A stretch of 64,000 nucleotides of DNA from positions 372,001 to 436,000 of the forward strand of contig NZ_JASISQ010000002.1 of assembly GCF_030063205.1 (NCBI RefSeq), written 5' to 3'. The position numbers were made by a program, and so were the translations under genes. This DNA is from Arthrobacter antibioticus. GTDB lineage: Bacteria; Actinomycetota; Actinomycetes; Actinomycetales; Micrococcaceae. The notes under the pieces were generated by a model that made no database searches, had not been told where the DNA came from, and saw nothing but the letters and a program-made list of their open reading frames with translations. Of this stretch, positions 21,212 to 24,816 are shown in pieces. Position 1 is the first letter of the stretch, and every line of letters begins with the position of its first letter.

Positions 21212-21898
21212 ATGCCGCTACAGACGCTCATGATTGCCTGTGCCCACGGCACCAACAATGCACAGGGCCAGGCACGCATCAATCAGGTGCGGGACGAGAT
21301 TGCTGCTTTGCGTCCCGAACTTTGCGTCATGGAAGCCTACGTCGACGTCCAGAAACCTGCCCTTCCAGATGTGTTGTCAGGCCTAGCACCTGGGATCCGG
21401 GCCGTGGTGGTTCCATTGTTACTGACAGTGGGATTCCACATTCAAGTAGATATTGCCGAGGCTGTTGCTGCCCGCGCCAACACGGTTGCCGCTGCACCAC
21501 TTGGACCGGATCCAAGATTGGCAAAGCTGCTCGATGAGCGTCTGGGGACACTGCCGGAAGATTGGGGCATAGTGCTGGCGGCGGCGGGGTCCTCACGCCC
21601 AGAGGCGGCTGAAAAAATTGAGGTGCTTGCCGCCGATTTAGCTGTGCGGCGCCCCCAACGGATTCTTCCCGGGTACGGGGCTGGGGCGGAGCCTTCTGTT
21701 CATGATGCCGTGGCACAGCTGCGATCTGAGGGGGTTGGCGGGGTTGCTGTAGCCTCCTACTTATTGGCGCCGGGACATTTTCATGATCAGCTTGCCAGCG
21801 CCGGCGCTGACCTCGTGGCGCCGCCGCTATTGCCCTCTAGCCTGGTGGCAGAACTTGCTCTGGAACATTTTGACGCGGCTGTGTCCCGGGCGGACTAG
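21212..21898 (+). CDS. Sirohydrochlorin chelatase-like protein (CbiX/SirB family)
   Basis: 228 residues. The metal-binding histidines are visible in ACAHGTNN near the N-terminus, in LLTVGFHIQVDI and in LLAPGHFHDQL. The last two belong to the two half-repeats of a full-length chelatase. It inserts iron into sirohydrochlorin to make siroheme for the sulfite reductase encoded 1.2 kb downstream. ATG 21212 is chosen because AAAAAGGA lies eight bases upstream; the longer frame starts in non-conserved sequence. Cobalt insertion is an alternative, but no cobalamin genes are present. Confidence 0.85.
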   Translation: MPLQTLMIACAHGTNNAQGQARINQVRDEIAALRPELCVMEAYVDVQKPALPDVLSGLAPGIRAVVVPLLLTVGFHIQVDIAEAVAARANTVAAAPLGPDPRLAKLLDERLGTLPEDWGIVLAAAGSSRPEAAEKIEVLAADLAVRRPQRILPGYGAGAEPSVHDAVAQLRSEGVGGVAVASYLLAPGHFHDQLASAGADLVAPPLLPSSLVAELALEHFDAAVSRAD

Positions 21899-21915
21899 CC
21901 CCGAGCACCTCTTCC

Positions 21916-21982
21916 GCGCGTGGTTCGCTGCGAATACTGCGCCACAAACATTGTGGCGCAGTATTCGCAGCAAACCACGCGC
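21916..21982. repeat. 67-nt near-perfect hairpin (32-bp arms, 3-nt loop)
   Basis: Left arm 21916-21947, loop ACA 21948-21950, right arm 21951-21982; 31 of 32 positions pair. It begins 17 bases after the chelatase stop and lacks a clear T-run, so it is not a typical terminator. Its right half recurs, diverged, at 22928-22969 on the other side of the DUF559-like gene. Confidence 0.9.
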
Positions 21983-22088
21983 AGAATCGATGTGCGTTTA
22001 CTCCTCCACAGCACGGGCTCCTCAGCAGGTCATCCACATTCTCAACTTTGGGCTCCTGCGCTTAGAGCTGTGGGCGCATGCTGGGTTG

Positions 22089-22910
22089 ATGAATCAAAAG
22101 AAGTCAGTTGAAACGGTATTGACATTACTGGGGAAGACCGCCCCGAGGAAAGCACTTTTGGACCGTGGTGTGACTGCGTGGGCGCTCCAGCAGGCCGTCG
22201 CCTCCGGCTCGGTAAGCCGCAGTGGGCGAGGGGTCTATTCCTTGCCAGGTGCGGACGCTTTCGATATGCACTTGGCTCAGAGTTTAGCCACCCTTGACTG
22301 TCTTAGCCGGGCTGAGCGCATGAAATTGTGGGTTCTGCACAGTCCGTCCCAACCACACGTGGCGACATCTCATGGGAGGGCAGTGGCGGGTTGTGTTGTG
22401 CACCGGGTTCGCGGCAGGGCTACATTTTGGGACTGCCTTCGTCATTGTCTTCAGTGCAGCTCCGATATGGAGGCGCTCTGCATTTTAGAGTCCGCGGTGG
22501 TGCTCAAGAAGTGCACCATGGCCCAGTATCGGCGGGTCTTCACCAAGAGAAAAGATGCACGTGCGCGCCGGATTGTGGACATGATTGATATGCAATCAAT
22601 GTCCATTGCTGAAACGTGTGGACGTTACCAGCTCAGGAATGCTGGGTACACGGTCCAGGTTCAGGCCTACATCAAAAATGCTGGACATCTGGACCTGCTT
22701 GTCGATGGGGTGCTCGGCATCGAAGTGGACGGACAGAAGTACCACAACACGCCAGAAGGATGGGTTGAGGACCTTCGGCGGGACACCATGTACGTGCTCA
22801 ATGGCGTCTGGCGGCTTCGAATTCCGGCAGCCATTGTGCTTTATCGCCCCGAGATTATGCTCCAGTGGGTGGAACAAGCCTTGGCAACCATCGCTTCAGC
22901 GCGTCGTTAA
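22089..22910 (+). CDS. DUF559-like endonuclease-domain protein with N-terminal winged-helix segment
   Basis: 273 residues. N-terminus: KTAPRKALLDRGVTAWALQQ followed by GVYSLPGAD resembles the winged-helix (AbiEi antitoxin-type) domain. C-terminus: LDLLVDGVLGIEVDGQKYH has the D...E-x-D pattern of DUF559 / Vsr-like PD-(D/E)XK folds, followed by RRDTMYVLNGVWRLRI. Such proteins are common in actinobacteria, often in several copies, and their function is not established. ATG 22089 is the best start; the frame extends upstream through the hairpin. A diverged 42-bp direct repeat flanks the gene, and it splits the sulfur-assimilation genes, so insertion is likely. Confidence 0.7.
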   Translation: MNQKKSVETVLTLLGKTAPRKALLDRGVTAWALQQAVASGSVSRSGRGVYSLPGADAFDMHLAQSLATLDCLSRAERMKLWVLHSPSQPHVATSHGRAVAGCVVHRVRGRATFWDCLRHCLQCSSDMEALCILESAVVLKKCTMAQYRRVFTKRKDARARRIVDMIDMQSMSIAETCGRYQLRNAGYTVQVQAYIKNAGHLDLLVDGVLGIEVDGQKYHNTPEGWVEDLRRDTMYVLNGVWRLRIPAAIVLYRPEIMLQWVEQALATIASARR

Positions 22911-22927
22911 CCTCGGATCTTGTGCAG

Positions 22928-22969
22928 CAAACATTGTGGCGCAACGTTGGCGAACAACGGCGCGCAGAA
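22928..22969 (+). repeat. 42-bp direct repeat, right copy
   Basis: Partner of 21945-21986. The first 16 bases (CAAACATTGTGGCGCA) and last 8 (GCGCAGAA) are identical and total length is equal; the 18 central bases have diverged. The two copies bracket the DUF559-like gene. Confidence 0.75.
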
Positions 22970-23067
22970 GTGGCGCATACATGAGCACCAGAATGGTCGG
23001 TGTGACGAATTGTTGCCCGAGGTGAAGCCGCGTTGCATTCGTGATTGTTGCCGGGCATGAGGCAATC

Positions 23068-23079: not shown

Positions 23080-24816
23080 ATGACACAGACAGCTCTAGCC
23101 GGAGCGAGCGCCGCGGCCGATGCTCCCGCCACCCGCAGACGTCCCGCCACTAAGCCCCACGGCCAGTGGAAGGTGGACGGCAAGGCTCCCATGAACCCGG
23201 TTGAGGTATGGAAGCAGGACGATGACGGTTTGTCCGTGCGTCACCGCATCGAGACTATTTATTCCAAACAAGGTTTTGATTCCATCACTGATGACGACCT
23301 GCACGGACGCTTCCGCTGGTGGGGACTGTACACGCAGCGTAAACAGGGGATCGACGGCGGCAAGACAGCCTCACTTGAACCGCACGAGCTCGAGGACAAG
23401 TTCCTGATGCTGCGCGTCAGGATCGACGGCGGGCGCCTCACCACCGAACAACTACGCGTTATTGGCCAACTTTCCCGCGATTTTGCGCGGGGCACTGCAG
23501 ATTTGACCAACCGGCAGAACATCCAGCTGCACTGGGTTGAGGTGGAAAATGTGCCTGAAATCTGGCGCCGTCTGGAAGCGGTTGGGCTTTCAACCACTGA
23601 AGCCTGCGGCGATGTTCCCCGCGTAATCCTGGGCTCGCCAGTTGCTGGGATAGCCAAGGAGGAACTCCTTGATCCGACGGATTTCATCCAGGAAATCAAC
23701 CGACGCTTCATCGGCAACCCAGAATTCTCCAACCTGCCCCGCAAGTACAAAACCTCCATCACCGGCCACCCCAACCAAGACACTGTGCACGAGATCAACG
23801 ATGTCTCTTTTGTGGGTGTTTTGCACCCTGAGCTGGGTCCCGGCTACGACCTCTGGGTAGGCGGCGGACTTTCAACAGCACCCCGGCTAGCCCAGCGGGC
23901 TGGCGTATTTGTGCCGCCGGAAGATGGGCCCGCAGTTTGGGAAGCCGTTACCAGCGTCTTCCGCGACTATGGCTACCGCCGGATGCGCAACAAGGCCCGC
24001 ATGAAGTTCTTGATCGCAGACTGGGGCGTAGAAAAGTTCCGTCAAATCCTTGAAGAAGAATACTTGGGCCGCAAACTTCCGGACGGCATTGTTCCGCCGC
24101 AAGCCAAGGATTTAGGCGACCATGTGGGCGTCCATGAACAAAAGGATGGCAAGTTCTTCATCGGCTCCAGCCCCTTGGTGGGTCGGCTCTCCGGGGACAC
24201 CCTGGTTGCCCTGGCGGACTTGTTGGAAGCGCAGGGTTCGTACAGGTTGCGCACTACCCCGCATCAAAAAATTCTGGCTTTGGACATAGACACAGCGAAT
24301 GTGGAAACCGTCATTGCCGAACTGGGCGCTCTCGGATTGTCAGCCAGGCCCTCAATTTTCCGCCGCAACACCATGGCCTGCACAGGCATTGAGTTTTGCA
24401 AGCTGGCGATCGTGAATACCAAGGACACCGCCATCCACGTCATTGAAGAGCTGGAAGAGCGCATGAAGGATTTGGTTGACGCTGGCGTGCTGGGAGCGCC
24501 CATCACCTTGAATATCAACGGGTGCCCCAACTCCTGTGCTCGGATTCAGACAGCAGATATTGGGCTCAAGGGCATTGTTGTTCCCACGGACGACGGCGGC
24601 ACAACAGGTGGTTTTCAGGTTCACCTTGGTGGTGGGCTGGCCTCACGAGACCGGGAAGAGGCTGGGCTGGGGCGCACCGTCCGTGGGCTCAAGGTGGCTG
24701 TCGATGAGCTGTCCGATTACGTGGAGCGGGTCATTCGCAGCTATGCGTCCCACCGTCTGGCTGATGAAACTTTTGCCGAGTTTGCCCACAGAGTAGATGG
24801 GGAGCTGCTGACGTGA
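23080..24816 (+). CDS. sir: Ferredoxin-dependent sulfite reductase (nitrite/sulfite reductase family)
   Basis: 578 residues. Two ferredoxin-like half domains precede the siroheme/[4Fe-4S] ligands C434, C440 (CTGIEFC), C482 and C486 (GCPNSC). The siroheme-binding arginines lie in DFARGTADLTNRQNIQ. The gene heads an overlapping operon with cysH, cysD and cysN, so the substrate is sulfite (six-electron reduction to sulfide) and not nitrite. ATG 23080 is fixed by the TACGCT promoter element; the frame extends 13 codons upstream without support. Electron supply is probably ferredoxin reduced by the FprA-type reductase at 34704. Confidence 0.92.
   Translation: MTQTALAGASAAADAPATRRRPATKPHGQWKVDGKAPMNPVEVWKQDDDGLSVRHRIETIYSKQGFDSITDDDLHGRFRWWGLYTQRKQGIDGGKTASLEPHELEDKFLMLRVRIDGGRLTTEQLRVIGQLSRDFARGTADLTNRQNIQLHWVEVENVPEIWRRLEAVGLSTTEACGDVPRVILGSPVAGIAKEELLDPTDFIQEINRRFIGNPEFSNLPRKYKTSITGHPNQDTVHEINDVSFVGVLHPELGPGYDLWVGGGLSTAPRLAQRAGVFVPPEDGPAVWEAVTSVFRDYGYRRMRNKARMKFLIADWGVEKFRQILEEEYLGRKLPDGIVPPQAKDLGDHVGVHEQKDGKFFIGSSPLVGRLSGDTLVALADLLEAQGSYRLRTTPHQKILALDIDTANVETVIAELGALGLSARPSIFRRNTMACTGIEFCKLAIVNTKDTAIHVIEELEERMKDLVDAGVLGAPITLNINGCPNSCARIQTADIGLKGIVVPTDDGGTTGGFQVHLGGGLASRDREEAGLGRTVRGLKVAVDELSDYVERVIRSYASHRLADETFAEFAHRVDGELLT

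Follow-up and report, generated by a model that had tools for sequence, protein, structure and literature searches.

The window analysed in this study is a 64,000-nucleotide stretch of the Arthrobacter antibioticus genome. Within it, a gene encoding a winged helix joined to a nuclease-like domain is bracketed by two composite palindromes. The features of the locus are listed below.

21212..21898, + strand: CbiX-type chelatase gene, host flank (start codon chosen by the author)
21912..21986, no strand: 5' composite palindrome, 75 nt, a near-perfect hairpin ending 102 bp upstream of the ATG
21945..21960, + strand: exact 16-mer common to both elements, 5' copy
22089..22910, + strand: AbiEi-type winged-helix plus Vsr/MTES_1575-type nuclease gene, 273 aa (start codon picked by comparison with relatives)
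22895..22969, no strand: 3' composite palindrome, degenerate, with the length and register of the 5' copy (+983)
22928..22943, + strand: exact 16-mer common to both elements, 3' copy
23080..24816, + strand: sulfite/nitrite reductase gene, host flank (start codon chosen, conserved in relatives)

The window gene, its palindromes and its genomic site

The 5' element is an inverted repeat with 36-nt arms (21912-21947/21951-21986) that are 94% complementary around a 3-nt loop. Folded as single-stranded DNA, the hairpin reached -42.7 kcal/mol (z = -10.75 against 200 dinucleotide shuffles). A direct repeat of 81 nt lies on the two sides of the gene (21906-21986 and 22889-22969), ungapped and with 70% identity. 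The 3' element has both ends and the exact 16-mer of the 5' element, with a diverged middle, and overlaps the final codons and the stop of the nuclease gene. No significant hairpin was obtained for this copy (folding of 22910-22976, z = -0.73). A preliminary description, made from the sequence alone, had reported a 67-nt hairpin and flanking direct repeats with identical ends and a diverged middle, in a unit splitting a siroheme chelatase gene from a sulfite reductase gene. All three claims held, with a slightly longer hairpin, 75-nt elements in register and a CbiX chelatase as the upstream flank. The same description proposed a 16-base core as a search probe. Exact copies of this 16-mer, CAAACATTGTGGCGCA, were found genome-wide only at 21945 and 22928, and three further sites each carried two mismatches. 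Matches with up to 3 mismatches numbered 3 within the window, which is no excess (12 of 100 shuffles reached 3). As it was exact at the two window copies only, the 16-mer was dropped as a probe and replaced by element-level searches; the core itself is not dispersed, whereas the diverged element is.

The window protein consists of an AbiEi-like winged helix-turn-helix and an MTES_1575/Vsr-type nuclease domain, which upheld the initial call of a winged helix with a nuclease-like domain; its own Pfam scores were under the curated cut-offs. In a genus-wide alignment of the family, all 27 members matched Pfam MTES_1575 (Vsr-type nuclease) at E 0.01 or better, while AbiEi_4 was matched by 16 and AbiEi_3_N by 9. 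Residues H202, D204, E214, D216, G217 and H221 were invariant across the 27 sequences, forming G-H-x-D and E-x-D-G...H patterns. An AlphaFold2 model (pLDDT 87) matched the AbiEi antitoxin 6y8q with a Foldseek E of 1.9e-4. Its matches to NGO0050, I-Bth0305I and Vsr were weak (E 0.07 or more), that to the homing endonuclease I-Bth0305I (3r3p) combining a probability of 0.97-0.99 with an E of only 0.08-0.18. The gene product was assigned to the Vsr/EDxHD nuclease superfamily by its fold and its conserved acidic and histidine residues, on structural matches that are weak, and nuclease activity is inferred. No transposase domain was found in the nuclease gene by Pfam search. Seven pairs of related genes were compared for dN/dS (omega); one (L028/L029) had a dS of 0 and gave no ratio, and the other six gave 0.07-0.31. 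The related pairs are under purifying selection, and the protein therefore appears to be maintained.

The reductase served as a query against 23 genomes of the genus, among them the window's own genome (G000) and another of the same species (G019). The nuclease gene was present in the 1.5 kb upstream of the reductase in these two only, and it was absent from that interval in all 21 genomes of other species. The chelatase lay inside the interval in 16 of the 21. The preliminary description had asked whether an empty site exists in relatives, and these genomes support one. Several of them have different palindromes before the reductase, without the gene. Protein matches were found in 22 of the 23 genomes, at one to five per genome, some of them fragmentary. 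The window's own genome holds a second gene of the family (C15:166021) beside tRNA-Gln, where many relatives keep theirs, and for this reason the window copy is likely to be an extra one. No match to the protein was found on 72,556 plasmid or 50,697 phage records. As a separate observation, strong conservation throughout the genus was seen upstream of the sulfite reductase at 23003-23060 (GTGTGACGAA...TTGCC...GTTGCA), a possible regulatory site.

Paired palindromes at related genes

Since one member of a pair is often degenerate, scans for hairpins alone underestimate bracketing, and a paired-flank alignment was used instead. At 36 loci, mostly from Arthrobacter and relatives, the 400 bp on the upstream side were aligned locally with the 400 bp on the downstream side, and the best score exceeded all 138 control windows (control maximum 24) at 22 of the loci. 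Six of an original 42 loci (L089, L090, L093, L095, L098 and L119) were left out because their sequence was cut off or partial, and the score of L118 may be a weak alignment of GC-rich coding DNA. With mechanically called genes, scores of 25 or more were reached by 12 of 35, compared with 2 of 196 control genes (Mann-Whitney p = 1.3e-7); the ORF-start rule of these calls enters the 5' palindrome at some loci, lowering their scores. Across the order, the protein family was present in 126 of 297 genomes at E 1e-10. Forty loci from other genera and families, selected from part of the order-wide matches, included 9 above the maximum of 200 controls, and outside the window's family 6 of 30 loci were above the maximum of 200 controls. 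Some mid-range scores in the 40-locus set, such as those of L319, L325 and L308, seem to reflect no more than weak similarity between GC-rich coding sequences.

Bracketing by paired composite palindromes is frequent among genes of this family, and the arrangement around the window gene is real and one case of this general layout. Whether repeats flank other such genes had been raised in the preliminary description; paired palindromes do, with different sequences. Among 28 of the 30 loci L006-L035 (L023 and L027 omitted), the 5' copy often lies about 65-155 bp upstream of the start codon. The bracketing is not universal, as 14 of the 36 loci and 31 of the 40 failed to exceed the controls, and in G021 both palindrome copies are on one side of the gene.

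Ten loci have both flanks in common; at L087 these flanks are an ABC-ATPase gene and, at the opposite end, tRNA-Gln. At this shared home, the 5' and 3' windows of the same locus aligned with a mean score of 34.8 (25 or more in 8 of 10 species), versus 13.0 for the 5' window of one species against the 3' window of another (25 or more in 2 of 90). Uncut same-end windows gave high means between species, 30.2 (5') and 50.6 (3'), because they take in conserved host DNA. When the palindromes were cut out of the windows and compared by themselves, the same-end means between species were 10.7 (5') and 11.3 (3'), with scores of 25 or more in 1 of 28 comparisons at each end (L088/L091 and L084/L087). 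The cut-out was possible for only 8 of the 10 loci, those with matching ends, so the within-locus mean in that subset is a selected one. Since the same-end similarity of the cut-out palindromes was low and the ends matched within species, both ends have for the most part changed together between species. The protein and the palindromes differ strongly between species at this site. A correlation between protein identity and flank similarity (Mantel 0 of 999) was not taken as proof, because it stems in part from loci that sit at the same chromosomal site. Eleven loci of other species (L099, L103-L106, L108, L110-L113 and L115) have in common another chromosomal home for the gene.

Dispersed copies and the structure of the element

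With the window palindrome as query, five matches were obtained in G000, five in G019 and one each in G001 and G017. The family is small, with two flanking copies and four dispersed relatives in G000 (C14:503157, C15:10948, C16:285408 and C20:38269), the last three of which sit between convergent genes by simple ORF calls. The pattern TGCGCCACN{3,10}GTGGCGCA gave 54 forward sites over the 23 genomes, compared with 1 for the reversed control. The palindrome at the gene's home in the window's own genome had 13 matches in G000, 13 in G019, three in G007, two in G016 and one in G018, and none in the 18 others.

Used as queries, the flanking palindromes of three other genomes each found about 15-19 dispersed copies in their own genome, compared with 0-3 matches per genome in the 22 others. 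The gene-adjacent palindrome of G009 matched 35 times in G009 (both strands) and 0-3 times per other genome, three of the cross-genome matches being host-gene ends. The G021 palindrome matched 34 times in G021 and twice in G002, both times beside the gene of G002 itself, and the G014 palindrome matched 36 times in G014 and 0-3 times elsewhere. These matches resolved into 17 rows for G021 and 20 for G009, with two at the gene in both cases, and 29 for G014, some of them partial; by place, G014 has about 21 copies, two at the gene. The palindromes are specific to genome and gene, with related copies dispersed. Cross-species matches fell at 23 places, after exclusion of the 3 host-gene-end matches and a weak match of the G021 element in G002 (C1:3261079). 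Six were within 500 bp of that genome's own family gene (hand count) and 17 were away from any family gene.

For the genomic setting, 52 copies were placed, of which 39 were classifiable, 8 were unclear and 5 were inside predicted ORFs; gene-holding loci and seven secondary G014 rows were omitted. Convergent genes flanked 16 of the 39 classifiable copies in the three genomes. For comparison, gene pairs were convergent in 58 of 346 cases in G000 and in 18 of 65 cases in the copy-bearing stretches. In G014 only 3 of 15 classifiable copies were between convergent genes, and 6 of the 15 were between divergent genes. Several dispersed elements were seen as tandem pairs about 190-280 bp apart (L222, L248, L254, L255, L258 and L261).

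A different palindrome family (GAGGTTGGAGATGATGACACCCC and its complement) was noted on G000 C14 (L120-L139), at six places in 456 kb (100095, 146108, 174837, 176971, 442212 and 461322). The frames examined between one close pair do not resemble the nuclease family, and for the other palindrome families in G000 no link to a gene of the nuclease family was detected. On G019 C1, at the places syntenic with G000 C14:100122 and 146140, two insertions of ~1.44 kb lie inside this second family; they carry frames that we read as IS3-like and are absent from G000.

In the G021 and G009 families, one half-site occurs four times in the element, at fixed positions and in alternating orientation (F-R-F-R). 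With 2 mismatches allowed in 9 positions for G021 and 3 in 12 for G009, all four half-sites were present in 16 of 17 G021 copies and 18 of 20 G009 copies, and chance half-sites in the flanks were 0.53 and 0.06 per 120 bp, respectively. The G014 rows were less regular in their half-site layout. The ends of the element are defined, and the outer flanks look unrelated. No gene remnants were found beside the dispersed copies; the protein family was present in 6 of the 56 fetched stretches, all six of which had been fetched as gene-holding. A second, different palindrome adjoins a G021 element (L217:1171-1325), and G015 contains several matches to it.

The genes on either side of one intergenic G021 copy are conserved in the genus. 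No element match was found at that place in other genomes, and none was seen by eye in the intergenic stretches inspected from nine other genomes; in G015 the two flanking genes fall on separate contigs. Neither a target-site duplication nor a precise empty junction was resolved for this lineage-specific copy. A lineage-specific site was found for the window gene and for at least one dispersed copy. Two strains of the window species, 98.1-99.6% identical in the compared blocks, showed no element insertion among the indels listed over 400 kb (one replaced stretch of ~4 kb/8 kb was excluded). The indels consisted of IS elements, short tandem repeats, length changes in coding sequence and one unrelated hairpin. 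At about 288782 on G000 C14 (L133), a long hairpin of G019 is largely missing and does not look like the window family.

The preliminary description had suggested a dispersed or mobile cassette in which the protein acts on the repeat. On the whole this reading is supported. Dispersal in the host genome held, for the diverged element. Mobility and action of the protein on the repeat are inferred from co-occurrence and lineage-specific sites.

Interpretation and alternative explanations

Dispersed palindromes are common in bacteria. The nearest described arrangement is the REPIN/RAYT system, with its enzyme gene flanked by short palindromes and its cognate, dispersed, intergenic miniature copies, and also with distinct flavours per gene copy, local clusters and vertical inheritance of the gene (PMC3116915, PMC8049555). 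RAYTs belong to the Y1/IS200 transposase family. The enzyme here is an AbiEi winged helix with a Vsr/EDxHD-type nuclease rather than an HUH Y1 transposase, elements of two families are built from four alternating half-sites, and the copies number about 4-19 compared with 69-235 REPINs in E. coli genomes (PMC8049555). The Y1/IS200 transposase (PF01797) was undetected in 21 of the 23 genomes, including G000, G019, G009, G014 and G021, and two genomes have one. Because this defining enzyme was undetected, the window system was not filed as a member of REPIN/RAYT.

Other systems have part of the layout. The TIRYT/TIRtron gene lies between inverted repeats, and some species have a repeat family that matches them, but the enzyme is a tyrosine transposase, and the nuclease family of the window is unmentioned in the relevant sections (PMC3733652). 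AbiEi/Rv2827c antitoxins (type IV toxin-antitoxin) have the N-terminal winged helix and bind inverted repeats (PMC7319586), whereas the C-terminal domain of the window protein is a Vsr-type nuclease. An AbiEii (DUF1814) toxin gene is not adjacent at the window locus, where the neighbours are the chelatase and the reductase. The EDxHD homing endonuclease I-Bth0305I has a similar catalytic fold (3r3p), but the window repeats lie on both sides of the gene, with dispersed intergenic copies, and no intron or host-gene target was identified. Caulobacter VsrA has a DUF559/Vsr-type catalytic domain, but the role proposed for it is in mismatch repair, together with a cytosine methyltransferase, and palindromes are unmentioned in that text (PMC12907096). 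An association of this nuclease with palindromes appeared in no title or abstract opening across the open-licence literature searched, in keeping with the initial remark that no named system has this layout.

The explanation that we favour, with moderate confidence, is that the gene and its two palindromes form one unit of a REPIN/RAYT-like system that has an unrelated nuclease; binding, cutting and mobility are all inferred. The AbiEi-type winged helix would bind the half-sites, perhaps as a dimer of dimers, and the Vsr/EDxHD-type domain would nick or cut the element itself or the cruciform or hairpin that it forms. Copying to other places would then fall to host repair or replication. This would maintain miniature elements in low numbers alongside a nuclease gene, the latter often being inherited at one fixed location. 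Inverted repeats are bound by winged helices of the AbiEi family, two sets of them in the case of Rv2827c (PMC7319586), and I-Bth0305I forms a dimer on a target almost 60 bp long (PMC3943268); both fit with recognition of a four-half-site element. It is the winged-helix/Vsr-type nuclease that tracks the palindromes; its part in their propagation is inferred.

Four alternatives were weighed against this REPIN/RAYT-like reading. The winged helix might regulate its own gene and the genes near the dispersed copies, as an operator and regulon, with the nuclease having a separate task and the repeats being immobile. AbiEi and Rv2827c do autoregulate via promoter inverted repeats (PMC7319586), the frequent 5' position at about 65-155 bp before the start codon would suit an operator, and so would the divergent setting of 6 of 15 classifiable G014 copies. 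However, the stop codon and the space between convergent genes, where 16 of 39 classifiable copies in three genomes lie, are poor positions for an operator, and the defined ends, unrelated flanks and lineage-specific presence look like insertion, which makes this explanation unlikely. Also unlikely is a homing-like or addiction role, in which a selfish nuclease gene cuts alleles or rivals, its own palindromes are the target or a protective mark, and the dispersed copies are relics of past insertions, or decoys. The resemblance of the catalytic domain to I-Bth0305I, the strong differences in protein and palindromes between species at one chromosomal site, and the species-specific site of the window copy are in its favour. 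Against it, the dispersed copies have defined ends, a mostly full four-half-site structure and no gene remnant beside them, and the protein was unmatched on the 72,556 plasmid and 50,697 phage records.

Ordinary bidirectional terminators, or palindromes lying beside the gene by chance in palindrome-rich genomes, would be consistent with the 39 strong hairpins per 456 kb of G000 and with the frequent location of dispersed elements between convergent genes. This possibility was considered very unlikely, as paired flanks occurred at a lower rate in control windows and control genes, the palindrome sequences are specific to genome and gene, and the half-site spacing is fixed in two families. The remaining alternative is that these are true REPINs moved by a RAYT/IS200-type Y1 transposase elsewhere in the genome, with the nuclease as an incidental neighbour. 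Palindromic, intergenic, dispersed elements beside an enzyme gene are a REPIN/RAYT hallmark (PMC3116915), but PF01797 (Y1_Tnp) was undetected in G000, G019, G009, G014 and G021 and the palindromes track the nuclease gene, and this explanation is all but excluded.

A bolder form of the REPIN/RAYT-like reading, which remains possible but which we would not yet back, is that these palindromes are a new class of miniature mobile DNA, in which four-half-site palindromes are moved by a winged-helix plus Vsr-type (PD-(D/E)XK-like) nuclease, with no transposase involved. The class would be widespread in the order to which Arthrobacter belongs, its enzymes and palindromes diversifying in step at a conserved chromosomal home. 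In the literature searched, the only enzymes dedicated to dispersed palindromes were RAYT-type and related tyrosine transposases. If the reading is true, systems of an enzyme with dispersed palindromes would have arisen more than once, the second time with a chemically unrelated enzyme family. It would also suggest a function, open to testing, for the many MTES_1575/AbiEi-like genes that are still uncharacterised, and would provide natural enzyme-palindrome pairs for studying the co-evolution of DNA specificity and repeat populations.
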